A stretch of DNA of 35,201 bases from Bacteriovorax stolpii (GTDB lineage Bacteria > Bdellovibrionota > Bacteriovoracia > Bacteriovoracales > Bacteriovoracaceae): the NCBI GenBank assembly GCA_945860895.1, contig CAMASK010000025.1, positions 1 through 35,201 of the forward strand, written 5' to 3'. Each line of letters begins with the position of its first letter. Position 1 is the first letter of the stretch. Positions 24,983 through 35,201 of the stretch are shown piece by piece. Below the pieces are notes generated by a model. The model was not told the DNA's origin. It saw nothing but the letters and a program-made list of their open reading frames with translations, and did not search any database. The position numbers were made by a program, and so were the translations under genes.

Positions 24983-25008
24983 AACTGATTTTACTTCTCA
25001 GTTTTATT
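24983..25008 (+). terminator. Weak hairpin after the coiled-coil gene
   Basis: AACTGA (24983-24988) can pair with TCAGTT (24998-25003), followed by TTATT. The stem is only 6 bp and AT-rich, so it may attenuate rather than stop transcription into the TolC-like gene. Confidence 0.3.
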
Positions 25009-25023
25009 GATGTTACACTTTTT

Positions 25024-25050
25024 CCCGCACACACCTATTTTTTGCGGGAG
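25024..25050 (+). promoter_or_regulatory. Hairpin overlapping the ribosome site of the TolC-like gene
   Basis: CCCGCA (25024-25029) is complementary to TGCGGG (25043-25048). The right arm overlaps the Shine-Dalgarno GGGAG (25046-25050), 7 bp before the TTG start at 25058. In the folded state the ribosome site would be partly hidden. This site also decides the TTG start, since the ATG at 25051 is out of frame. Confidence 0.4.
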
Positions 25051-25057
25051 ATGAGCT

Positions 25058-26566
25058 TTGCTGAAGCCCATAATTTTCTCTATTCTTTTTATGAGCTTTG
25101 CCTTCGGGCAGGATGAGGATTTAACTTTTCTTGAATCCTCCATAAACTCAGATCCTTCTTCAGACAGTACTGACGCCCCAACAGAAACTTCAAAAAAATC
25201 CCGCTGGAATGTTCGTCGCTCACAACCTGGAAATGAAAAAGAAAAAGTTCAGGAGGGTCGTGTTCTTGATTTACGTTCCATTCTCGAGGAAGGCTTCAGA
25301 AGAAATCCTTTTGAACAAATTCGTGGACAACAAAGAGAACAAATTGATTTATCCAAGACTGATGTATTTCAAAAGTTTTGGTACCCAACTCTAGGGTTAG
25401 AAATGAATACTTCTAATCATCTGATAGATCGCTTTAAACAGTCTTCACAAAACACCCCCGGCATGGGAGCTCAACAAGCACCTAACGGAAGTATTGGACT
25501 GGTGTTTGATGAATATACCCTTTTTAACTGGGGTCGTGATTACCTTCAATATTTAAATGAAAAACAAACTTTAAATCGTAGAACGCAACAATTGAGTGAA
25601 GCACGCAGAAGGCTGAAATTTTCACTTATTAATCAATATTTTAATCTCGTTCGATTCAAAGAGATTCTACGAATTAAACAAGAGCAGCTGCGCCAGACAT
25701 CCTTCATTCATCGTCTGGCCCGAGAGAAACTCCAATTAAGAAAAATTCGGACTCAAGAATATTATCAAACTCGTTCTGAATATCTTCGTTCTCAAACAGA
25801 GTACCAACAAACTCAATTTGAGGTGGGACTTGAAGAAGAGAAGATGGCCAACCTTATGGGTGATGAATATCGAGGTACTTATCGCTCAGTTGAGCAACTA
25901 AAATTTCTCAGTGTTAACACCTCCATGAATGAAGCCTTGAAGCTTTCTCAAGATCAAAGTCAGCCTTATAGGGACGCGAAGGTAGCCTATGATGTGACTT
26001 CTCGTGTGTATGAGAAAACGTTGAAGGACAACCTTCCCCTACCAAAGTTTGGATTTAATCTTGGAACGTATGCTACAGATTTTGGACCTCAAGGCAGCAA
26101 CTATTCCTACCAGACCACTCCTGGCAACAGGAACATTGAACTTGTAGCGTCCATCAATATGCGCTGGACTATTTTGGGTGAAGGTGGCTTCTTTAACAGT
26201 CGTGAAAACCAACAGAGTTATCTAGCCAAAAGAATTGCAGAAATTAATTTTTTCAATACTCGCCGAGAATTGGATGTAAAAGTCAGAACGATTTACAAAA
26301 CAATTCGCTATCTGGAGGAGAAAGTTAATATTTCTCAGTATCAACATAAGAATGCTCAGAGTAACTACGACTCTGCCTTAGATAATTATATCGCCGGTCG
26401 GGCCACTTATGCGGACATAAAGCTTGCCATCGACAATTTGGTTTTCTCGCATATTAATACCGAGAATGTAAAATATGAGCATTTAGTTAAAAAACTGGAG
26501 TTAGCTGACTTCATGGGACTTGAAGATTTTCCAGGGGAAAACTTTGAGTCATTGGCATCGAGGTAA
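25058..26566 (+). CDS. TolC-family outer-membrane efflux/secretion protein
   Basis: This 502-residue protein is an outer-membrane channel of the OEP type, which connects to inner-membrane pumps or type I exporters. It has a signal peptide (LKPIIFSILFMSFAFG, cut before QDED), then a Ser/Thr/Asp-rich linker to about residue 60. Two OEP repeats follow: the first starts RVLDLRSILEEGFRRNPF with long helices (e.g. LNRRTQQLSEARRRLKFSLI), the second near SVNTSMNEALKLSQDQ. It closes with the helix containing YDSALDNYIAGRATYADI, a familiar OEP feature. The start is TTG, based on GGGAG 7 bp upstream. No pump genes are adjacent; an outer-membrane protein gene follows with a 1-nt TAATG overlap. Confidence 0.82.
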   Translation: MLKPIIFSILFMSFAFGQDEDLTFLESSINSDPSSDSTDAPTETSKKSRWNVRRSQPGNEKEKVQEGRVLDLRSILEEGFRRNPFEQIRGQQREQIDLSKTDVFQKFWYPTLGLEMNTSNHLIDRFKQSSQNTPGMGAQQAPNGSIGLVFDEYTLFNWGRDYLQYLNEKQTLNRRTQQLSEARRRLKFSLINQYFNLVRFKEILRIKQEQLRQTSFIHRLAREKLQLRKIRTQEYYQTRSEYLRSQTEYQQTQFEVGLEEEKMANLMGDEYRGTYRSVEQLKFLSVNTSMNEALKLSQDQSQPYRDAKVAYDVTSRVYEKTLKDNLPLPKFGFNLGTYATDFGPQGSNYSYQTTPGNRNIELVASINMRWTILGEGGFFNSRENQQSYLAKRIAEINFFNTRRELDVKVRTIYKTIRYLEEKVNISQYQHKNAQSNYDSALDNYIAGRATYADIKLAIDNLVFSHINTENVKYEHLVKKLELADFMGLEDFPGENFESLASR

Positions 26567-27339
26567 TGATGAGATTTATTTTCCTTATACTTTTAGTTTC
26601 TCAAACTCTTTTTGCTGCGGATCCATTTGATTTAACAAATGAAGAGATCAATCCTGATACGGAACAAATTCTCATCAAGAAGCCTGAGAAATATCTTCGC
26701 AATGAAAGCATGATTTATGATCTAAATACTAATCTGGGAATCAAGGATCAACGTCGTTATACTGGTAAAGATAAAAACAAGTTCTCAGTGGCCGGTCACA
26801 TTTCAGCTAACTATGAACACTTGAATGATATCTTAGGATTTGATGTCAACTATATGAGACGTTCGGATCGCTACAACAGAATCTGGTATGGTTTTCAATT
26901 TTTCCAAAACCGAACTTTCTTTGATTCTATAACACAAAACAAAACCGCTGCATCTAGTGATAACGCCAATTCTGATTCTCAGTTTCAGCGTCCAAACAAT
27001 GTGAAGAATAATGTCTTTGCGGGTGGACTGGGTGCTGGTTATCGCTTCAAACTTCTTATGGACTTTTTTCCAACAGAAGATGTTTTCGAAACAGTTGATG
27101 TCTTCGCTAACTTTATTACTCTGGATGAAACATTCATTAAGCGTAAATATAAGGGTTATGGACTGACTACAAACTACTCCATCACCAAGAGATCAAGCAC
27201 AAGTTACTTTTATGGTGCGAAGTTCTCCTATAATGTAGCTGCCGTTACAAGAGATGCTATTGGTACTGAAAGTAAATCAGATCGAACATTCGCTCTTGGA
27301 TGGCTCTCAGCTGCTTTTGAAATGGGATTTTTCTTCTAA
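26566..27339 (+). CDS. Candidate outer-membrane beta-barrel protein
   Basis: This 257-residue protein is not assigned to a family. It has a signal peptide (MMRFIFLILLVSQTLFAA, cut before DPFD). The mature part has repeated alternating aromatic/polar strands (FSVAGHISANYEHL, RIWYGFQFFQN, VFAGGLGAGYRFKLL, SYFYGAKFSYNVAAV, FALGWLSAAFEMGFFF) and ends in Phe, the usual last residue of outer-membrane barrels. That suggests 8-10 strands. Translation is coupled to the TolC-like gene by the TAATG overlap, so the two probably work together in the outer membrane. Confidence 0.6.
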   Translation: MMRFIFLILLVSQTLFAADPFDLTNEEINPDTEQILIKKPEKYLRNESMIYDLNTNLGIKDQRRYTGKDKNKFSVAGHISANYEHLNDILGFDVNYMRRSDRYNRIWYGFQFFQNRTFFDSITQNKTAASSDNANSDSQFQRPNNVKNNVFAGGLGAGYRFKLLMDFFPTEDVFETVDVFANFITLDETFIKRKYKGYGLTTNYSITKRSSTSYFYGAKFSYNVAAVTRDAIGTESKSDRTFALGWLSAAFEMGFFF

Positions 27340-27341
27340 AT

Positions 27342-27956
27342 TTATTTCATTTCAGTGATGACGTAGTCTTGTCCAGAAAATAGAGACTGTTCATCCTTCA
27401 CATAGACCTTAGCTTCTTCCACTGTTCCAAAGAGCCCCAGACTGACGCGATACCATGTTCCCTTACCAATTAGAGTTGTTTCTTTAATAATTGGTGAATA
27501 GCCTCTTACTGTAAAACCTTCGGCAAATTGCTTTGCTTCTTCAACTGTTGGATAAGACCCTAATTGAATCGTATATTTTCCGGCCATGACATCGGAGCTT
27601 TTAGTTTCAATACTTTGATTAAAAGAAACATCTACAGGCGCAACTTTTTCTTCAGATGAAAACTTCTCGAGTTCATCAGATAAACGTGACTTAGACTCAT
27701 CCATTAATTTTTTTAATTTTTCTTCATCAGTAAGTTTGGAATCCTCTTCAACCGTTTTTTCTACATATTCTTCAAGACCAGATTTAAGTTCTACAGTTTT
27801 CTGATCTTGCGGTGTAATGCCAGATTCAGCGAAACTGAGTTTTTTTCCTAGACGAATACCCAGAGTAAAACTTGTAATGATCAAGACCACCACAAAAATT
27901 AAAACGAGAACAATCTCTTTATTTTCAAAAACGATAACTTTGTTATTTTCTTCCAT
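27342..27956 (-). CDS. SPOR-domain membrane protein
   Basis: This 204-residue protein has a short cytoplasmic N-terminus, one transmembrane helix (about residues 14-36, LVLIFVVVLIITSFTLG), a charged Glu/Lys/Ser-rich linker and a C-terminal SPOR domain from about residue 125. The domain reads YTIQLGSYPTVEEAKQFAEG in repeat one and WYRVSLGLFGTVEEAKVYV in repeat two. SPOR domains bind denuded glycan strands of peptidoglycan, often at the division septum, and this layout is like FtsN or DedD. It stands alone on the minus strand, convergent with the barrel gene (2-bp gap) and divergent from the Tad locus. Confidence 0.82.
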   Translation of the reverse strand: MEENNKVIVFENKEIVLVLIFVVVLIITSFTLGIRLGKKLSFAESGITPQDQKTVELKSGLEEYVEKTVEEDSKLTDEEKLKKLMDESKSRLSDELEKFSSEEKVAPVDVSFNQSIETKSSDVMAGKYTIQLGSYPTVEEAKQFAEGFTVRGYSPIIKETTLIGKGTWYRVSLGLFGTVEEAKVYVKDEQSLFSGQDYVITEMK

Positions 27957-28089
27957 TTCATTATTTTAGGGTCTTAGCCCATTTCGCGCAAAGCTTTTCA
28001 TTTCCGAACAAACTGATCGGTTTTTGCCATTTTTAATGCGAAATCTGGCCTCTGGGATTAAAAACCCTTTCGGCCACAAGGAGGCAAAC

Positions 28090-28296
28090 ATGAAATTGAA
28101 TATTTTTAAGCTAGTTCACAATCAAAAGGGCCAGGGAATCATGGAGTACGTCATCATTTCCAGTTTAATCGGGATTTGCTGCTTGGTTGCTGTGAAGCAG
28201 TTCGGAAAGGTTATTCATGAAAGAATCGAGGAAATGAAGGAAAAAGTTACCAAAGAAATCAAAGTGACCTCAAGCAATACCAGAAGTGATTTTTAA
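28090..28296 (+). CDS. flp: Flp-type (type IVb) prepilin
   Basis: This 68-residue protein starts at 28090, after AAGGAGG (28078-28084, 5 bp spacing); the longer frame from 28024 adds 22 unlikely residues. The N-terminus MKLNIFKLVHNQKG is a leader ending in Gly. Cleavage there leaves QGIMEYVIISSLIG, with Glu and Tyr at mature positions 5 and 6, the hallmark of Flp pilins, and then a hydrophobic helix. After processing and assembly such subunits form the Tad pilus used for surface adhesion. The Lys/Glu-rich tail is somewhat longer than in typical Flp pilins. It is the first gene of the plus-strand Tad-like run that ends at 32653. Confidence 0.75.
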   Translation: MKLNIFKLVHNQKGQGIMEYVIISSLIGICCLVAVKQFGKVIHERIEEMKEKVTKEIKVTSSNTRSDF

Positions 28297-28298
28297 CC

Positions 28299-28577
28299 AT
28301 GAACCTACTTGTTTGGGTTCTGGCCCTTACACTCATAGTCTCTTTAATGGTTGAGTCAGTGGTCTTTTATAAGGCCACTGTCTGCCGGCAAAGGGCTTGG
28401 CTTAAAGGAACTGAACTTGTTACCAGAAACTTGCTCCATTCACCCCAGACTTATGAGCGTTTCGTGGATTTATCTTGCAAGGTCTATGTATCGCGAAGTC
28501 ATAAACGTGTTTTGTGGCACAGGCTCCCCCAACTGAATAAACATGAATTCAAATTAGAACTTAAGGGGAAGTTATAA
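28299..28577 (+). CDS. Small membrane-anchored protein of the Tad-like locus
   Basis: This 92-residue protein has an N-terminal hydrophobic helix (residues 2-24, LVWVLALTLIVSLMVESVVF) and a basic remainder (CRQRAWLKG, RSHKRVLWHR). It could be a minor pseudopilin of the TadE kind: the Glu in the hydrophobic helix is reminiscent, but there is no leader or Gly cleavage site at the start. It begins 2 bp after the flp stop, with no clear ribosome site, suggesting translational coupling. It ends in the TAA that overlaps the presumed ATA start of the next gene. The function is inferred from position only. Confidence 0.5.
   Translation: MNLLVWVLALTLIVSLMVESVVFYKATVCRQRAWLKGTELVTRNLLHSPQTYERFVDLSCKVYVSRSHKRVLWHRLPQLNKHEFKLELKGKL
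28563..28576 (+). promoter_or_regulatory. Ribosome site AAGGGG and ATA start codon of the next gene
   Basis: AAGGGG (28563-28568) lies 5 bp before ATA (28574-28576). The ATA overlaps the TAA stop of the previous gene as ATAA, matching the common ATGA overlap except for the third start base. The nearby ATG at 28581 is in another frame and meets a stop after 11 codons. Confidence 0.45.
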
Positions 28578-29176
28578 AAAATGAACGAGGTGAAGCGACT
28601 TTATTTTGTGTTTTGATCCTGGTGGCCTTAAGTGGACTGCTCACACTAGCAGGGCTTGAATTGCAGCGCAACTTTGTACTTCTCCAAAAGAGAACGCAAT
28701 TATTTTTATGTGTTAAAGAGACCAAGGGTGAATTGAACAACTATCTTTCGTCCATAGGAAGAACAAATTGGGTTTTAAAAAATACAAATCGTGCCCAAGC
28801 CGCTGCAGTCTTTATTCCACCACTTTGGCCACATATCGCAAATGCGGAAAAAATAAAAAAAATCATGAAGGCCCATCAGGCGATGAAGCTGAGCCTTTAT
28901 TATAAGACGCTGTTTAAACTAAAAAACAGGGGCTGCCCGATGGATACAAAAATGTTTCTGAATTCCTATCTACCAGGAAATGATTATGGTTTCTCCAGGA
29001 ATATAGATTCATCAGCTAAATTAAGGACAAACAAATGGACCTATTATTTTTTCGACAAGCCTTATCTTCTCACTCTTCATGTGGACGCATCCGGTGCAGA
29101 AAGTCTTGTTCCCAAACTCGACTACCAGGCAAAGGAGAAAATGGGGACATTGTCCTTCCTTTTATCATCACACTGA
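28574..29176 (+). CDS. Pseudopilin-like protein of the Tad-like locus, apparent ATA start
   Basis: Read from ATA at 28574 it has 200 residues. The N-terminus KNERG followed by EATLFCVLILVALSGLLTLAGL is a prepilin-like leader with cleavage after Gly and a single hydrophobic helix. The first ordinary start in this frame, TTG at 28613, would cut the helix in half and remove the leader, so the upstream part is almost certainly coding. The rest is soluble, with three Cys and an alpha/beta mix (LQKRTQLFLCVKETKGELNNYL near the start). The role is probably that of a TadE/TadG-like minor pilin. A single A-to-G change at 28576 would give ATG and a TGA stop for the previous gene, so sequence error is the main alternative. 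Confidence 0.55.
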   Translation: MKNERGEATLFCVLILVALSGLLTLAGLELQRNFVLLQKRTQLFLCVKETKGELNNYLSSIGRTNWVLKNTNRAQAAAVFIPPLWPHIANAEKIKKIMKAHQAMKLSLYYKTLFKLKNRGCPMDTKMFLNSYLPGNDYGFSRNIDSSAKLRTNKWTYYFFDKPYLLTLHVDASGAESLVPKLDYQAKEKMGTLSFLLSSH

Positions 29177-29301
29177 TGAGTGGAGCTTTATTATTTTCCG
29201 GACTTTTTTTTCTTAACAAACTTTACGAGCATCGAACGAAGGAAGAATTGAATGATTTCAAAACTAATTGGCAGAATCTTGAATCAAAATACCAGGACTA
29301 A
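29035..29301 (+). CDS. Small pseudopilin-like protein overlapping the previous gene
   Basis: From the ATG at 29035 (AAGGA at 29023-29027) it has 88 residues and overlaps the previous gene by 142 bp. The informative part is GKGENG followed by DIVLPFIITLMSGALLFSGL, a prepilin-like Gly site and hydrophobic helix, then a charged coiled tail (KLYEHRTKEELNDFK). The first 30 residues are Ser/Cys/Arg-rich and look like an out-of-frame shadow. A start at the ATG at 29176, coupled through TGATG to the previous stop, would give only 41 residues and lose the leader. The true start is unsettled. A minor pilin of the Tad system is likely, but a frameshift in the region is not excluded. Confidence 0.45.
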   Translation: MDLLFFRQALSSHSSCGRIRCRKSCSQTRLPGKGENGDIVLPFIITLMSGALLFSGLFFLNKLYEHRTKEELNDFKTNWQNLESKYQD

Positions 29302-29677
29302 AATATGGTGGATGAAGCTCGGTATAGCTCTTCTATTGTCCAATATTTTCTTTTTTGTCCTCTTCACCGGAAATGAAGCTCCAAAAGTTGCTCAGGCTAC
29401 ACCTGAGGGTTGGGTTGAAATTCAGATCAAGGCAGAATTACTTACTCCATTTCATTCTGGAAAAAAGGTGCTTTTATTACACCGCAATTCCCGCAAACAT
29501 CTAGAGGCCATGTTAGAAAAATCTCCATTAGAACCTGAGGGACGCTTTACTGTTCTGGTTAAAGAGTCACAAGCACAAGCCCTCTTGTCTTACGATAGCT
29601 GGGAAATTATTCCATTTTTAAAAACGCTCAATTTCGCACCAATTTCTAAAGGAGCAGCACATGAAATTCATTATTAG
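29252..29677 (+). CDS. CpaB/RcpC-like Tad pilus assembly protein, short form
   Basis: This 141-residue protein starts at 29252 after AAGGAAG (29239-29245), overlapping the preceding gene by 50 bp. It has an N-terminal basic segment, one membrane helix (about residues 22-40, LGIALLLSNIFFFVLF) and a periplasmic part with WVEIQIKAELLTPFHSGKKVLLL, then FTVLVKESQAQALLSYDSWEIIPFL. The latter recalls the C-terminal half of CpaB/RcpC, including the TL.V...QA..L element. Classical CpaB is about twice as long and has an SAF domain, which is not clear here. Its place directly before the secretin region agrees with the Tad order cpaB-cpaC. Confidence 0.5.
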   Translation: MISKLIGRILNQNTRTKIWWMKLGIALLLSNIFFFVLFTGNEAPKVAQATPEGWVEIQIKAELLTPFHSGKKVLLLHRNSRKHLEAMLEKSPLEPEGRFTVLVKESQAQALLSYDSWEIIPFLKTLNFAPISKGAAHEIHY

Positions 29678-29957
29678 TTTTACTTTTTTAGCTCTTTTGA
29701 GCTTGCCAGTATTTGCCCGACCAATCCATGTTTACTATGAGCAGAATTCAACGGATGCCAAATGGATTAAAGATATTTTTGTTCAAACTTATCATATACC
29801 AGAAGATTTAATTGCTTTGACAGTGACACCAAAATGCGAGGCTTTAAAAGAGCGAGGAAAACTTGACCTGTGCTTAAACAACAACGGAGACCTTTTGATA
29901 GTCTCCGTTGATCATGAATTCATTTCTGAATCACTTAAAATCTTTCAAACCCCGTAA
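29661..29957 (+). CDS. Small exported protein of the Tad-like locus
   Basis: This 98-residue protein has a signal peptide (MKFIISFTFLALLSLPVFA, then RPIH) and follows AAAGGAG (29648-29654). The mature part of 79 residues is alpha/beta with a Cys pair (PKCEALKERGKLDLCLN). It overlaps the CpaB-like gene by 17 bp. No family is recognised; it may be a periplasmic accessory of the secretin, judged by position between cpaB-like and cpaC. Its codons near the end carry a perfect 10-bp inverted repeat that may terminate the antisense transcript from 30229. Confidence 0.55.
   Translation: MKFIISFTFLALLSLPVFARPIHVYYEQNSTDAKWIKDIFVQTYHIPEDLIALTVTPKCEALKERGKLDLCLNNNGDLLIVSVDHEFISESLKIFQTP
29882..29910 (-). 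terminator. Perfect 10-bp hairpin inside a coding region, possible antisense terminator
   Basis: CAACGGAGAC (29882-29891) pairs fully with GTCTCCGTTG (29901-29910) around a 9-nt loop. On the minus strand the stem is followed by TTGTTTAAG, a weak T-tract. It lies about 62 bp past the stop of the antisense basic-protein gene. On the plus strand there is no T-run. Confidence 0.45.
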
Positions 29958-29969
29958 GGAGCTAAAATG
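29955..29969 (+). promoter_or_regulatory. Ribosome site and ATG separated from the secretin signal peptide
   Basis: TAAGGAG (29955-29961) lies 5 bp before ATG (29967). It is placed exactly where the secretin start is expected after the preceding gene. The frame stays open into the secretin but first passes through about 100 codons antisense to the basic-protein gene. Confidence 0.6.
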
Positions 29970-29971
29970 AA

Positions 29972-30229
29972 TTACTTAGTAGCTGTGGCTTTAGCTTTAG
30001 CTTTTGGAGCTGCTGTTTTTGCAGCTTTAGGTGCAGCTATTTTTGCAACTTTAGGTGCAGCTATTTTTGCAACTTTAGGAGCTGCTGCTTTAGCTTTAGG
30101 AGCACCATCTTCATGGATCGCAAACTTAGGTGTAGTACCTTTGTTACGATTAGCAGCTTTTCTCTTAGCGCCTGCTGCTCTTCTGTGTGCCTTACGACGG
30201 TTTTCTGTTACTGCGGTTCTAGAAGCCAT
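29972..30229 (-). CDS. Lys/Ala-rich small basic protein, antisense to the secretin 5' region
   Basis: This 85-residue protein starts at MASRTAVTENRRKAHRRAAG; the longer frame from 30307 is not needed. The N-terminal 45 residues are strongly basic (NRRKAHRRAAGAKRKAANRN) and include KGTTPKFAIHEDGAPK. The C-terminal 40 are Ala/Pro/Lys repeats (AAPKVAKI, twice exactly, then variants), like the tails of bacterial histone H1-like proteins. Nucleic-acid binding is therefore a fair guess. GAGGAG lies 6 nt before the ATG, and a TTGACA-17-TAGATT promoter precedes it. Codons are those of highly expressed genes (GCT, GCA, AAA, CGT, GGT). Opposite-strand coding in the same bases (29967 to the secretin) is long, but much of it is Ala/Leu/Phe runs expected as shadow. 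Confidence 0.72.
   Translation of the reverse strand: MASRTAVTENRRKAHRRAAGAKRKAANRNKGTTPKFAIHEDGAPKAKAAAPKVAKIAAPKVAKIAAPKAAKTAAPKAKAKATATK
30009..30080. repeat. Three tandem 24-bp repeats
   Basis: Units at 30009-30032, 30033-30056 and 30057-30080. The second and third differ by one base; the first differs from them at a few positions; a degenerate partial copy follows to about 30098. On the minus strand each unit codes one Ala/Pro/Lys octapeptide of the basic protein. Confidence 0.85.
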
Positions 30230-30266
30230 AAATATCTCCTCAAGGAATAGTCTTAATCTTTCAGTT

Positions 30267-31547
30267 TTGAAGCTCCTCAATCTAACGAGAAGCATTCTTC
30301 TTGTCAAAGTCTTCTTCTTGTTACCCTCTGCGTCATTCGCTCAAGTTTCGTCTAGTGACGTCATTCTGGCCAAGGGAGAACAAAAAGAACTAGCTTTTGA
30401 TGGCCTAAAAAACTTTTCGGTGGGTAATCCAGAGGTGATTTCCTATAAGTTCATACCAAAAACTGGAAAGCTTCTTTTAAAGGGCAAGAGAGTTGGATTC
30501 ACAGATCTCGTGGTATGGAAGCAAGCAGGCAAAGAAGTCATTAGCATCTACGTTCTTTCCAAACAAAAATTTCTTAAAACTTTCCAGCTGGCAGACGCAC
30601 TTAAGAATCTGAATCTTACCATTGATATTAAAGGCCCCATCATGACTGCTTCTGGAACGTTAACGGACTTCTCTGATTATCTGTATCTTCAGAAAATAAA
30701 GGCACAGTTTCAGGATCAGGTTTTTTTCAAAATCACTCTCGATCCCAAATTACGTAATCACATAGTTGGACAAATTTATAAAAAGCTTTACGGGAACGGG
30801 TTCTCATCAGTCACTTGTCAGGTGGATTGGTTAGACATCCTTTGCTTCTATGAAGGGGTGAGTAATGCTGAATTTCTTAAACAGCTTGCAAGTTTTTATC
30901 GAGTTTCATTTATCCAGCAGGATTCCCGTCTTCGTCATAAAAACTATCGATTAAAACTTAAACTTATTCAGCTTGAAAGAATGGACGGAAGAGAAATTCA
31001 TATGGGTCTAGATAAACTTTCGGCGAATGTATCTGATTTATTTGTGAATGGTATTCGTAATATGATTGATAAAAATGCAGTGTTCTTACAAAAATCGCAA
31101 ATGGATTTGTCATCGCTTGCCGAACCAGAGCTAGTTATCAACCTGAATACGCCACAACTGGTAGAAATTGGCTCGCAAATTCCTTACCAAAACATTGGAG
31201 TTCAGGGCGCCACAGTTATTGCTCCAATTGATTGGAAATTTGCCGGTCTTAAGATTAAAACCAAAGTGACAGAATCATGTGGAAAATTATTACTAGAATA
31301 TGAGACAGAATTCTCACGACCGGCTGAACAGGCCATTAGTGGAAGCAAAGAAATTTCATCTGCACTCCTGGAGGTTGGAGTTCCAATGAAAATATTCCAA
31401 ATTGGCTTTCAAACGAATTCAAAGAGTCGCAAAGGTATTCCTCTGATCTCGGATATACCGATATTAAAGCAGCTCTTTGAATCGAAATCAGATCAAAAAA
31501 CTTATAAACAAATCTATGGCTATGTAGTTCTTGAAACGGTGGAATAA
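30267..31547 (+). CDS. cpaC: CpaC/RcpA-type secretin of the Tad-like locus
   Basis: From TTG at 30267 the product has 426 residues and a textbook signal peptide (KLLNLTRSILLVKVFFLL, then PSASFA before QVSS). The pilus-formation N-terminal domain follows: GEQKELAFDGLKNFSVG, then LLLKGKRVGFTDLVVW. A middle domain and the secretin domain complete it (GSQIPYQNIGVQGATVIAP, then LEVGVPMKIFQIGF, then KGIPLISDIPILKQLF, then YGYVVLE). Secretins form the outer-membrane ring through which the pilus passes. The TTG has only a distant AAGGA (30242-30246). The alternative ATG at 29967 has a strong ribosome site but adds 100 residues read opposite to the basic-protein gene. Excision of exactly 300 bp would join that ATG to the signal peptide. 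Stop and next start overlap as TAATG. Confidence 0.82.
   Translation: MKLLNLTRSILLVKVFFLLPSASFAQVSSSDVILAKGEQKELAFDGLKNFSVGNPEVISYKFIPKTGKLLLKGKRVGFTDLVVWKQAGKEVISIYVLSKQKFLKTFQLADALKNLNLTIDIKGPIMTASGTLTDFSDYLYLQKIKAQFQDQVFFKITLDPKLRNHIVGQIYKKLYGNGFSSVTCQVDWLDILCFYEGVSNAEFLKQLASFYRVSFIQQDSRLRHKNYRLKLKLIQLERMDGREIHMGLDKLSANVSDLFVNGIRNMIDKNAVFLQKSQMDLSSLAEPELVINLNTPQLVEIGSQIPYQNIGVQGATVIAPIDWKFAGLKIKTKVTESCGKLLLEYETEFSRPAEQAISGSKEISSALLEVGVPMKIFQIGFQTNSKSRKGIPLISDIPILKQLFESKSDQKTYKQIYGYVVLETVE
30279..30307 (-). promoter_or_regulatory. Near-consensus sigma-70 promoter of the antisense basic-protein gene
   Basis: On the minus strand TTGACA (30307-30302) and TAGATT (30284-30279) are 17 bp apart. 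The -35 is full consensus; the -10 matches 4 of 6. The predicted transcript starts near 30272, about 42 nt before the ATG at 30229, with GAGGAG (30241-30236) in between. The promoter lies inside codons of the secretin signal peptide. Confidence 0.65.
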
Positions 31548-32653
31548 TGTTAAGTATGTTTAAAGAAAATGAAGCCCCTCTTAATTTGGAAGAAGCGCTT
31601 ATTCAAGCAAGAAGAATTTTAATCTCTAATTTGAATAAGGGCATGATTCCCAAATGGGATCATTTCTTTCAGGAGCTACCAGTATTAAATGCAGCTGAGG
31701 ATCTTCAATCAATAAAAGAGAATTTCATTGAAATCACAAGTTGGCCTTTTTTAGAAGAGATCCTGAATCAACCAGCTACAGAATTTTTCTTTCACTCATT
31801 TAATAAATCTCAAAGAATGACTTTTTCAGGGGAAAAAAAGAACATCAGCTTGCCTCTATTGGCCGAGGACTGGCAATTATGGCTCGAAATCATCTCCATC
31901 AAGTATAAGCAAAATTGGAATGTTCAAAATCCTTTTTGCAGTTTTTATGGAGAACTATTTGGAAAGAATTACCGTTTCAGCATGATCCATGGTTCAACTT
32001 CTCCTAGAGGAATATCTAAATTGGTCCTTCGATGTCTTGCCAATAAGCCTTACCCTATCTCTTCTTTTGGAGAGACTGATCTTTTGGTTGATTTAATAAA
32101 AAATAAAAAAAACATGCTGATTGCAGGTTCAACTGGCTCAGGAAAAACATCCATTCTGGCCAGTTTATTGGATTATGTTAACAAAGAAGAACATATTGTG
32201 GTTTTAGAAGATACCTATGAAATCCTTTCTGAGCTTCCTCATCAGACAAGATTTATTTCAGGAGACAGTGTCCAAACTTCATTAAAGTCCTATCTCTCTT
32301 ATACTCTTCGTTTAAGTCCTGACCGTATTATTTTAGGTGAGATGCGATCACATGAAGTCGTCCCGTTCCTCATGGCCATGAATACAGGTCATAAAGGTTT
32401 GATGGGAACATTGCATGCTTCAAGTGCTCATGATGCTCTTCATCGGGTCGCCCTTTTGTTTACTCTCTATGCTGGTGAAGCGAATTTAGCTTTCGAAAAA
32501 GTCATGGAACTTATTTGCAGGAATTTGGAGTATGTTGTTTTTATGGAAAATAAAAAAGTTAAGGAAATTATCAAAATTCTTGGATCAGATAAAGGTACTG
32601 CATTTTTTGAAGTAGTTGTTGGAAAAAAAGAAGAAAATTTTTTTAAAAATTAA
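31547..32653 (+). CDS. cpaF: CpaF/TadA-type secretion ATPase
   Basis: This 368-residue cytoplasmic ATPase of the VirB11/GspE superfamily powers pilus extension. The N-terminal ~170 residues are divergent. The C-terminal RecA-like domain has Walker A GSTGSGKT at 194-201, the Asp box around VVLEDTYEI, Walker B RIILGEMR at 260-267 with Glu265, and the His box GTLHASS at 287-293. Compared with typical CpaF (about 450 residues) the N-terminal part is shorter. The gene overlaps the secretin stop as TAATG. After it the plus-strand run ends; no tadB, tadC or tadZ follows in this window. Confidence 0.85.
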   Translation: MLSMFKENEAPLNLEEALIQARRILISNLNKGMIPKWDHFFQELPVLNAAEDLQSIKENFIEITSWPFLEEILNQPATEFFFHSFNKSQRMTFSGEKKNISLPLLAEDWQLWLEIISIKYKQNWNVQNPFCSFYGELFGKNYRFSMIHGSTSPRGISKLVLRCLANKPYPISSFGETDLLVDLIKNKKNMLIAGSTGSGKTSILASLLDYVNKEEHIVVLEDTYEILSELPHQTRFISGDSVQTSLKSYLSYTLRLSPDRIILGEMRSHEVVPFLMAMNTGHKGLMGTLHASSAHDALHRVALLFTLYAGEANLAFEKVMELICRNLEYVVFMENKKVKEIIKILGSDKGTAFFEVVVGKKEENFFKN

Positions 32654-32655
32654 AT

Positions 32656-32681
32656 TCTAGATAACCCGAAGGGTATCTAGA
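32656..32681 (-). terminator. Hairpin between cpaF and the convergent lipoprotein gene
   Basis: TCTAGATAACCC (32656-32667) pairs with GGGTATCTAGA (32671-32681), with one bulged A. On the minus strand the loop reads C-TTCG-G, a stable tetraloop, and AATTTAATTTTT follows, so it suits the lipoprotein transcript. On the plus strand there is no T-run. Confidence 0.55.
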
Positions 32682-32691
32682 GAATATAAAT

Positions 32692-33168
32692 TTAACATTT
32701 ACCGCCATTACATCCTTGACCACCACCAGTTGTTCCTCCAGATCTTCTCAAGACACCACATGCAATAGGTAATTCTTCAGGGGACTTATTTGGATCTGCC
32801 GAAGCAACTGAATCTGGCAGAATCGCATTTGCAGCAACACCATGAATCTCCACGACTCTTGCACCGTCAAATCCAATGATATCAGAATCAAAAGGTATCA
32901 GCACATTACCAGAAACTGCGTTAGTCTCTGGTCCATCAATCAAACCGTCACCATTAACAGTCACATCTGCAGTTCCACTAATTCCACCTGAGACTTGAGC
33001 ATTTAGTGGTGTTAATTCGGCCTTAAAACTTCCGCTATCTTGTTCTTGCTGTTGACCTGATTGAACTGATTTATTTGCGCCACTGTTTTCACCGCAACTC
33101 GCTAATGCGATGAACGCTGTAGTAAAAACTAATAACGTTCCTTTTCCACTGTACCATTTCTTTTTCAT
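32692..33168 (-). CDS. Lipoprotein with CHRD-like domain
   Basis: This 158-residue protein has a lipoprotein signal with lipobox LASC, Cys25, followed by Gly at +2, so outer-membrane sorting is probable. After a Gln/Ser-rich linker the segment FKAELTPLNAQVSGGISG, then ADVTVNGDG, then VVEIHGVAANA and ACGVL resembles a divergent CHRD or SOD-like beta-sandwich, seen by eye only. The C-terminus is Gly-rich with a Cys pair (GGGQGCNGGKC). AAAGGAG precedes the ATG, and a promoter with TTGACA lies upstream at 33324-33329. It is monocistronic with its own hairpin terminator. Confidence 0.6.
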   Translation of the reverse strand: MKKKWYSGKGTLLVFTTAFIALASCGENSGANKSVQSGQQQEQDSGSFKAELTPLNAQVSGGISGTADVTVNGDGLIDGPETNAVSGNVLIPFDSDIIGFDGARVVEIHGVAANAILPDSVASADPNKSPEELPIACGVLRRSGGTTGGGQGCNGGKC

Positions 33169-33302
33169 ATAAATCTCCTTTGATCGAAGAGCCTGATGCC
33201 CATACGCAGAAAGAACTGAGCAAGTTTAAGACCATGTTTAAATGACTGAATTCAGAAGATGAATCCTTGCAAATAAACATAAGTCGTATTGAAAAGTGGG
33301 AT

Positions 33303-33329
33303 TTTTTAGCAGAGATTTTATCTTGTCAA
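33303..33329 (-). promoter_or_regulatory. Candidate promoter of the lipoprotein gene
   Basis: On the minus strand TTGACA (33329-33324) is followed after 15 bp by TAAAAA (33308-33303). The -35 is full consensus; spacing is short and the -10 is weak. It leaves a leader of about 130 nt to the ATG at 33168; I see no structure or ORF in that leader that I can name. Confidence 0.4.
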
Positions 33330-33361
33330 AAGAATGTAATGATTAAAGACAAAGAATTTTC

Positions 33362-34090
33362 TTAATTTTTAGAGGCAACAAGTTCAACTATTCTGCCTTG
33401 AACTTTAGTTTTAATAACATCAAAGTCTGCTTTTATTAATAAATCTGAAACAAGCTCCGGTGTGAGTTTGAGTTTCTGGTAAGAATGTCCAGAAACTTTA
33501 AATTCATTGCCTATTTTTGTATGTAAGACATCCGTCGCAGTGATCATTTTTGCGTTTTCGTCTTCGAGTACGCAAGTCATGATGCTCTTTTCATCTTGTT
33601 TGATGATATAAAAACGCTCTGAATCCATGAATGGAATAGTTTGGTAATCACGCCATGAAAGATGCAGTCGTCCATTTTCAGAGACCTGATCTACCAGGGA
33701 TTGAAATAGATCATTAAGCATTTCCAGGGAGGCTAGATCAGTAAGGGTGTCACCAAGGCATAATACATAATCATAATTTTCAGAATGATGACGAAGGAAA
33801 GTGATGAAATCAGACTCAACTGTTTTAACTTTTGAACTGGGATCGAATTTTTTGAGTTCATTCAATAGTTCGGAAGAAAAATCTATCGCAGTAACCGCTA
33901 ACCCGAGCTCGGCTGCAGGAATAGCATGGGAGCCGAAACCAGCTCCCAGATCCAATAACTTTCCTTCAGTAATTCCATTTTGCATTAACCACGCCGCATT
34001 CTTTTGAAAAAGATCGGCCTTATCACCTAGGGTCCATGAATAAACTTTGGAAAGAAAATATTTATAATGGTTGAAAGCTGATGAACTCAT
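33362..34090 (-). CDS. Class I SAM-dependent methyltransferase
   Basis: This 242-residue cytoplasmic protein has the full Rossmann methyltransferase pattern: motif I LLDLGAGFGSHAIPA near residue 42, the acidic strand end VTAIDFSSELLNELKKF, VESDFITFL (motif II), and YDYVLCLGDTLTDLAS (motif III/IV), then GRLHLSWRDYQ. The C-terminal part is a beta sheet of the kind found in the Methyltransf_25 group. The substrate is unknown. It begins 6 bp after the stop of the EttA-like gene and is probably in the same transcript. Confidence 0.8.
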   Translation of the reverse strand: MSSSAFNHYKYFLSKVYSWTLGDKADLFQKNAAWLMQNGITEGKLLDLGAGFGSHAIPAAELGLAVTAIDFSSELLNELKKFDPSSKVKTVESDFITFLRHHSENYDYVLCLGDTLTDLASLEMLNDLFQSLVDQVSENGRLHLSWRDYQTIPFMDSERFYIIKQDEKSIMTCVLEDENAKMITATDVLHTKIGNEFKVSGHSYQKLKLTPELVSDLLIKADFDVIKTKVQGRIVELVASKN

Positions 34091-34096
34091 TAAAAA

Positions 34097-35201
34097 TTAA
34101 TCACGTTTTAATTTTTTGTAAGTCAGACGTTGTGGCACATCGGCTTTATCACCTAAGCGTCGTCTAAGATCTTCATGGTAATCCTGGAAGTTTCCTTCAA
34201 ACCATACCACTTTAGAATCCCCTTCAAAGGCTAACATATGAGTACAAATTCTATCTAAGAAGTAACGGTCATGGGAAATAACTACCGCACATCCAGCGAA
34301 ATCTAAAAGAGCACGCTCAAGGGCCTGAAGTGTATTCACATCGAGATCATTGGTAGGCTCATCCAAAAGAAGAACGTTGCCTTCTTCTTTAAGCATTTTC
34401 GCTAAGTGAACACGGTTTTTTTCACCACCAGAGAGTTCCTTGATGCGCTTGGATTGATCATCACCAGTAAGATTAAATCTCGAAATATAAGCGCGAGCAT
34501 TCATGTCCTTGTTTCCAAGTTTGATCAACTCAAGACCTCCAGAAATTTCTTGAAGCACAGTTGTCTCAGGGTCCATCTCGCGGGATTGATCAATATAGGA
34601 AAGTTTAACTGTTTCACCAACTTTAAAGGATCCCGCATCTTGCTCTAGCTGCTTGGTGATCATTTTAAATAGAGTTGTCTTACCAGCACCGTTAGGCCCG
34701 ATGATTCCCACGATTCCCCCAGGAGGAAGTTTAAACGTGAGGTTTTCATAGAGGAGCTTATCCCCGAAAGCTTTTGAAATTCCGTTGGCATCAATAACAA
34801 TATCCCCAAGTCTAGGACCTGGTGGAATAAAAAGTTCATTGGTTTCATTTCGCGCTTCAGCGGTTGAATCATTTTGCATTTGCTCATAGTTTTGAATACG
34901 GGCCTTGGATTTTGCCTGACGAGCTTTGGGTGACATGCGAATCCACTCAAGCTCTTCTTTCATTTTCTTCTGACGTTTCGATTCAGTTTTTTCTTCTTGG
35001 GCTAAGCGATTTGATTTCTGCTCAAGCCATGAAGAATAATTTCCTTCCCAGGGAATACCGGCACCGCGATCAAGTTCAAGAATCCAGCCAGCAACGTTAT
35101 CCAAAAAGTATCTATCGTGGGTAATGGCAATAACAGTTCCCTTGTACGCGTGAAGGTGACGCTCAAGCCAGAAGACAGTTTCTGCATCCAAGTGGTTGGT
35201 A
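34097..35201 (-). CDS. ettA: EttA-like ABC-F ATPase, C-terminal part (5' end beyond window)
   Basis: The frame is open to the window edge, where it reads TNHLDAETVFWLERHL, the Walker B/D-loop end of the first ABC domain; the gene's 5' part is outside. Then come the H-loop AITHDRYFLD, the linker with GNYSSWLEQK and a charged helical pair (PtIM), and WIRMSPKARQAKSKARI, typical of EttA. The second ABC domain has GPNGAGKTT, LSGGEKNR and LLLDEPTNDLD, then VVISHDRYFLDRI. EttA binds the ribosomal E site and adjusts translation to the ATP/ADP ratio. The visible 364 residues match the family closely, so the EttA subgroup is preferred over Uup or YheS. Confidence 0.9.
   Translation of the reverse strand, partial: TNHLDAETVFWLERHLHAYKGTVIAITHDRYFLDNVAGWILELDRGAGIPWEGNYSSWLEQKSNRLAQEEKTESKRQKKMKEELEWIRMSPKARQAKSKARIQNYEQMQNDSTAEARNETNELFIPPGPRLGDIVIDANGISKAFGDKLLYENLTFKLPPGGIVGIIGPNGAGKTTLFKMITKQLEQDAGSFKVGETVKLSYIDQSREMDPETTVLQEISGGLELIKLGNKDMNARAYISRFNLTGDDQSKRIKELSGGEKNRVHLAKMLKEEGNVLLLDEPTNDLDVNTLQALERALLDFAGCAVVISHDRYFLDRICTHMLAFEGDSKVVWFEGNFQDYHEDLRRRLGDKADVPQRLTYKKLKRD

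Follow-up and report, generated by a model that had tools for sequence, protein, structure and literature searches.

A conserved small basic gene nested antisense in the leader of a pilus-type secretin frame in predatory Bacteriovoracia

We analysed a contig of Bacteriovorax stolpii (CAMASK010000025.1, genome G000, 2.79 Mb) over its whole length of 35201 bases, hereafter the window, which carries an 85-codon minus-strand gene opposite the beginning of a plus-strand secretin gene. We refer to the small gene by the working label KA. Comparison with related genomes indicates that KA is very probably a conserved gene with a conserved promoter and terminator, faced by a frame that is maintained open and in fixed phase with the secretin. 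An earlier reading of the DNA letters (the sequence-only reading) had described a promoter, a GAGGAG ribosome site, the 85-codon open reading frame (ORF) and a stem, all of which lie where it placed them. The features of the overlap are as follows.

29972..30229, minus strand: KA gene for a very basic 85-residue protein, ORF from ATG 30229, with a conserved core of about 40 residues and a lineage-variable Lys/Ala/Pro tail
30302..30307, minus strand: KA -35 box TTGACA (promoter scan and relatives)
30279..30284, minus strand: KA -10 box TAGATT (promoter scan and relatives)
30236..30241, minus strand: KA ribosome-binding site GAGGAG (read in the sequence)
29882..29910, minus strand: intrinsic-terminator-like hairpin of KA (terminator scan), within the codons of a 98-residue plus-strand gene
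29967..31547, plus strand: secretin frame with N-terminal leader (Pfam Secretin and T2SS-T3SS_pil_N), holding KA wholly on its opposite strand
29956..29961, plus strand: Shine-Dalgarno (SD) sequence AAGGAG of ATG 29967, overlapping the stop codon of the 98-residue gene
30267..30341, plus strand: signal-peptide-like segment of the secretin, ending near ...SASFA (home-made motif test; presumed cleavage site)

The promoter-like sequence TTGACA-17-TAGATT (30307-30279, minus strand) matches the consensus at 10 of 12 positions, and the terminator scan gives the stem (29910-29882, minus strand) 11 pairs, 6 of them G-C, with a 7-nucleotide loop and a T-rich tail. As had been proposed, the promoter lies within codons of the signal-peptide-like segment: on the plus strand, the -35 box is part of the Val-Lys codons just before the hydrophobic part of that segment. 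Within 25000-35201, promoter-like sites number 19 compared with 23.3 in shuffled sequences, and terminator-like sites 10 compared with 8.3. Both scans of the window are thus at chance level, so relatives were needed, and it is their comparison that makes the signals convincing. No described structured RNA was found in 29500-30600, up to an E value of 1.

The relatives sampled, of which 80 of 122 were kept, bear names including Bacteriovorax, Halobacteriovorax and Bacteriovoracaceae and represent the predatory Bacteriovoracia. Of 58 relatives, 37 contain a match to KA; these include 23 of 25 further genomes sampled from the genus and 9 of 10 from the family's other genera. A profile search detected it in 113 of the 129 genomes belonging to the window's class (71 of 73 counting good genomes only) and, with Bdellovibrio-type members added to the profile, in 125 of 143 from the Bdellovibrio class (100 of 105 counting good genomes only). 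An initial survey of the phylum with a narrower profile gave 260 of 368 genomes (183 of 234 good ones), the 88 genomes without a match not being itemised. The gene is nearly always single-copy, the exceptions being G005, with two matches on separate contigs, and G206, where the match falls into two adjacent pieces. Its core of about 40 residues is invariant or nearly so (G-x-KRK...N-x-GTT), while its length ranges from 41 to 99 residues across the window's genus, the difference being the Lys/Ala/Pro tail.

In the KA frame, pairwise comparison of 25 genus-like loci shows 4178 codon differences of a single nucleotide, 3905 of them synonymous (93%). Judged by this codon pattern, KA is a real, conserved protein-coding gene under strong protein-level selection. 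The sequence-only reading had proposed such a comparison of related genomes; the minus frame proved strongly conserved, and the converse pattern, in which the plus frame is kept and the minus frame is not, was not seen. Conservation and codon pattern rule out a chance ORF, and the distribution of the family rules out a recent insertion. KA was assigned to no family by Pfam (best E 0.014, below the cut-off), NCBIfam (0.41), PHROGs (0 matches) or the PDB (0 at E 10); the family is unnamed in the libraries searched and is a near-universal small protein of the Bdellovibrionota. One candidate relative, a 414-residue Lys/Ala-rich protein of contig C2 (L002 1370-2614), was rejected, its N-terminal part resembling the KA tail only.

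We then examined the sequences flanking KA. Four loci without an ATG at the profile start (L008, L041, L113, L046) were left out; the remaining 177 yielded 128 unique loci with at least 100 nucleotides upstream (L001 and L002 excluded), of which 94 are of the TPKFxIH type. An exact TTGACA lies within 200 nucleotides upstream of KA in 83 of these 94, compared with 5.2 in shuffled sequences and 0 on the opposite strand; the shuffles used for relatives preserve base composition only. When 82 promoters were reduced to 56 non-redundant ones, a TA followed TTGACA at exactly 17 nucleotides in 47, and at 15, 16, 18 and 19 nucleotides in 1, 0, 4 and 2, respectively. A terminator-like hairpin lies within 150 nucleotides of the KA stop in 60 of the 94 loci, compared with 2.7 after shuffling. 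On these sequence patterns, both promoter and terminator appear conserved among relatives, and KA would be transcribed leftwards from a sigma-70-type promoter.

A separate observation concerns TTGAGGAGCTTCAA (minus strand, window 30267-30280), at or just past the -10 box, which is conserved in most genus-like loci and partly palindromic. It is possibly an operator, or it may reflect a constraint from the secretin codons MKLLN.

The genomic setting of KA differs between lineages. In 91 of the 94 TPKF-type loci, a secretin gene on the opposite strand begins no more than 1.2 kb from KA, the exceptions being L051 (contig end), L105, and L150 (secretin slightly farther). In 78 loci of the window's kind (group A), the next long ORF is codirectional with the secretin and KA is enclosed. 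In the other 16 (group B), metK follows KA on the same strand, as identified by Pfam in both loci tested (L107, L144) and by eye in six; in L144, valS lies beyond metK. Group B was assigned by hand, L105 by sequence likeness and L143 despite a first long downstream ORF on the other strand. The Bdellovibrio-type KA adjoins a 275-residue gene (no Pfam family), a TonB_C gene and an M23 peptidase gene, with no secretin or ATPase match nearby within flanks that for most loci reach only 1.5 kb. Because KA is found phylum-wide, and elsewhere next to metK or envelope genes, it is not a pilus gene by descent. This distribution indicates that KA is the older gene and the secretin leader a later layer, reversing the suggestion that a small gene had landed here. 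The Bdellovibrio-class setting also makes pilus control unlikely as the general role of the protein; antisense control of the secretin could operate within the window's class.

By eye, a GTTGAC-like box 5' of KA in Bdellovibrio-type genomes often appears to overlap the end of the 275-residue-type gene (L136, L157-L163, L167, L168, L170-L172, L175-L181), which would appear to be again a promoter within coding sequence. In one deep lineage (L169), also by eye, a KA-type gene seems to lie directly 3' of a tRNA-Cys-like gene.

KA had been described as lying across the secretin start. The overlap is real, while the geometry differs: ATG 29967, preceded by AAGGAG, is in frame with the secretin across all of KA and lies past the KA stop, so that KA (29972-30229, minus strand) is wholly nested within ORF 29967-31547 (plus strand) as a fully embedded antisense pair. 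An SD-preceded start lies beyond the KA stop in 22 of 22 genus-like loci (the motif being weaker or shifted in L010, L015 and L016), and in 0 of the 22 between KA and the secretin domain. The phase of the secretin relative to KA is identical in all 77 group A loci that yielded a secretin alignment; across 14 group B loci all three phases occur (5, 5 and 4). Across group A, 71 of 78 loci have the opposite frame open over the whole of KA. The third codon positions of the two frames face each other, and over KA 73% of the differences in the secretin frame are synonymous.

Two properties of the locus bear on whether the secretin frame is itself under selection. The DNA between the KA ATG and the -35 box encodes no part of KA, and the distance between the two should thus be unconstrained. 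Group A has 19 different values of this distance, from 52 to 147 nucleotides; 18 of these values are divisible by 3, as is the distance in 75 of 76 loci. Among controls, it is divisible by 3 in 1 of 7 group B and 1 of 7 Bdellovibrio-type loci, the remaining 9 and 27 having no exact TTGACA. Within KA, only some codon junctions allow a stop in the opposite frame, depending on the synonymous codon chosen. Observed stops number 0 compared with 15.3 expected in genus-like loci and 8 compared with 50.9 in the rest of group A, and in the controls 11 compared with 10.3 (group B) and 19 compared with 14.5 (Bdellovibrio type). Reshuffling synonymous codons left a mean of 25.0 and a maximum of 35 group A loci open in 400 shuffles, against the 71 of 78 observed; in the controls, 7 of 16 group B loci are open compared with 7.1, and 24 of 34 Bdellovibrio-type loci compared with 23.1. 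Selection is therefore seen on both frames: in the codon pattern of KA and, in group A only, in the stop avoidance and multiple-of-3 spacing of the secretin frame. Given the many distinct lengths and the two controls, inheritance alone is an unlikely cause.

Several observations count against this interpretation. Because the relatives are related to one another, their counts should not be read as p-values. Seven of the 78 group A loci (L029, L070, L078, L088, L091, L106, L135) have an opposite-frame stop, all at one KA junction 112 nucleotides from the KA ATG, and in these the secretin must start later; five of the seven have an in-frame ATG overlapping the KA start codon, a possible secretin start. 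Past the KA stop, an ATG preceded by an SD-like sequence is found, under a loose motif, in only 60 of the 78. In L094, of group A, the distance between the KA ATG and TTGACA is off-frame, and two group A loci have no exact TTGACA. Codon scores of 23 genus-like KA genes range from -0.058 to 0.261, with 22 above 0. KA has no sequence match to any ribosomal or nucleoid family in the libraries searched, and co-transcription of the plus-strand genes across KA as one operon is presumed. As a side observation, the secretin start looks as if it had moved in the closed group A loci.

One rival explanation accepts KA as real and places it in a gap between the 98-residue gene and a secretin that starts past KA, for example at TTG 30267, with the open frame accidental. 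The secretin domains do start well downstream of KA, whose composition, with few Tyr, His and Gln, offers few sites for stops in the opposite frame; since third positions face each other, that frame would also seem conserved anyway, with its 73% synonymous differences. What such an accident leaves unexplained is that synonymous choice at the risky junctions avoids stops in group A only, that group A alone shows length differences in multiples of 3 in the stretch 5' of the KA ATG, which does not code for KA, and that SD-preceded starts lie beyond the KA stop in every genus-like locus and between KA and the domain in none. We consider this explanation improbable.

Equally improbable in our judgement is that KA is primarily a dedicated pilus regulator, an RNA (or protein) that exists to repress the secretin and whose coding function is secondary. 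Its predicted transcript does span the SD sequence and start of the secretin, and KA faces a secretin in 91 of 94 TPKF-type loci, including those of group B with metK. Against this, the KA frame is under strong protein-level selection, in the Bdellovibrio class the family is retained with no secretin gene in the available flanks, and in group B KA is paired with metK. A chance ORF with a chance promoter and a chance hairpin would fit the window, where the signals are at chance level; phylum-wide conservation, the codon pattern and the promoter logo already refute it, leaving it hardly any probability. We therefore retain the reading of an old, conserved KA gene nested in a secretin frame that is kept open.

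The plus-strand genes around the overlap are the following.

28090..28296, plus strand: head of the plus-strand set, which we take to be a Flp-type pilin-like gene from the motif GQGIMEY...
29661..29957, plus strand: gene for a 98-residue secreted-type protein 5' of the secretin (no Pfam family)
31547..32653, plus strand: TadA/VirB11-type ATPase (Pfam T2SSE)

The set at 28090-32653 is Tad-like, with a candidate Flp-like pilin and, both by Pfam, a secretin and a TadA-type ATPase. The pilin-like gene itself has no Pfam match, and neither TadB nor TadC was found in the cluster, all six T2SSF matches of the genome lying elsewhere (contigs C10, C13, C39 and C94). Other secretins of the genome are on contigs C13, C32 and C39, and the window set looks like a partial, second Tad-like set. 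Plus-strand genes flank KA on both sides, making it an opposite-direction gene between genes of the presumed operon. The leader from ATG 29967 is hydrophobic and rich in Ala, Leu and Phe, a by-product of facing the Lys/Ala codons of KA, and continues into the signal-peptide-like segment that ends near SASFA; the home-made signal-peptide motif test is positive in 77 of the 78 group A loci.

We propose that in the Bacteriovoracia a pilus-type gene set came to surround the older KA, and that the secretin frame was extended upstream in one fixed phase, through KA, to an SD-preceded ATG by the stop of the preceding gene. The leader, being upstream of the signal peptide, would probably be removed on export, so the overlap would be tolerable and the leader sequence would hardly matter. 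The leader would also let ribosomes stay on the operon mRNA as they pass the region opposite KA.

The codon score of KA is 0.147, compared with 0.011 to 0.170 for 21 ribosomal protein genes of the same genome and -0.21 to 0.003 for 28 other window genes, and 0 of 386 85-codon stretches score as high, suggesting that KA is probably strongly expressed. AlphaFold predicts one helix (residues 6-28) and disorder beyond it, with a mean predicted local distance difference test (pLDDT) score of 69 and a predicted template modelling (pTM) score of 0.34. Since KA matched no described family, its molecular role is read from composition, codon use and neighbours. The single helix with disorder, the basicity, the near-universality and the metK and valS neighbours suggest a ribosome- or nucleic-acid-binding protein, and KA is most likely a housekeeping protein of this kind. 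That it binds the ribosome, rRNA or another nucleic acid seems to us an evenly balanced proposition.

The predicted KA transcript runs from about 30272 to about 29875 and covers the ribosome site and start of the secretin and the end of the 98-residue gene. As the sequence-only reading described, the locus holds a complete antisense transcription unit, encoding a basic protein and directed head-on into a pilus-type gene set, and the relatives show that protein to be conserved; polymerases leaving the KA promoter would meet those on the plus strand. A brake on pilus expression, one of the roles suggested for the unit, is a plausible hypothesis. More specifically, the KA mRNA, complementary to the secretin ribosome site, might together with head-on transcription lower secretin output when KA is highly expressed, a proposal we make tentatively. 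It is similarly conjectural that growth-phase transcription of KA would shut off both translation and transcription of the secretin, so that the two programmes exclude each other class-wide and each frame constrains the other.

Small basic proteins with Lys/Ala-rich tails include the histone H1-like proteins. KA resembles small basic ribosomal and nucleoid proteins in size, charge, disorder and ribosomal-type codon use, and differs from them in having no sequence match to such families.

Like the TAD operon and hit locus of Bdellovibrio bacteriovorus (PMC5430801, PMC3818213), the window has secretin and TadA-type genes of a predatory bacterium. The window set lacks TadB and TadC, and the KA homologue of the Bdellovibrio class lies elsewhere. 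By its size, the 98-residue gene could be a homologue of Bd0108 in the hit locus. The TAD operon of B. bacteriovorus is expressed in attack phase and driven by FliA (PMC5430801); this timing is opposite to that of a growth gene. A FliA-type pattern, TAAA-N12..17-GCCGA, has 3 matches in the window (1.8 expected by chance), none near 28090 before the plus-strand set. No antisense gene is mentioned in the excerpted descriptions of the Bdellovibrio locus (PMC5430801, PMC3818213), and none at this locus appeared among the matches listed in a literature search on antisense genes in Tad or pilus loci, which is not proof of absence in print.

In the noncontiguous operon menE-menC-MW1733-ytkD-MW1731 of S. 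aureus, a gene is transcribed against the operon from within it, with reciprocal repression (PMC7154746). As in that operon, or excludon, the KA mRNA would be both message and antisense RNA. In S. aureus, however, the part of the operon mRNA that base-pairs with the antisense message is untranslated, whereas KA faces codons kept open for translation, and the KA promoter and terminator also lie in coding sequence. Because the stretch facing KA is an open secretin frame, we do not class the locus as a noncontiguous operon, though it may work alike.

The ano and pop genes of E. coli O157:H7 are reportedly embedded antisense overlapping genes, and KA resembles them, as well as laoB and nog1 of the same organism, in being a small ORF embedded, fully or nearly so, antisense in another gene. 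Of these, laoB is reportedly a young overprint restricted to Escherichia/Shigella (PMC5810103), and nog1 is an antisense ORF embedded in another gene (PMC7457138). Unlike laoB, the embedded KA is old, the leader of its host gene is the overprint, and the overlap is present in most of the 78 relatives sampled. The E. coli cases come with expression and phenotype data, while the KA overlap comes from sequence comparison.

Long antisense overlapping genes in bacteria are disputed, partly since described cases, such as laoB, tend to be young, and showing that a bacterium maintains protein-coding frames on both strands is seldom possible. Here two internal control groups hold KA without the overlap, making selection on both strands measurable and not merely argued. 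If the interpretation is true, a growth-linked housekeeping gene and a pilus secretin share DNA class-wide, the leader being a disposable ribosome bridge across the antisense gene, and the locus is a natural test of head-on transcription and antisense pairing at the pilus-type genes of a predator. Embedded antisense genes and noncontiguous operons are already known; what is new here is an ancient embedded gene, an overlap present in most of the class as sampled and a facing region that is kept translatable.

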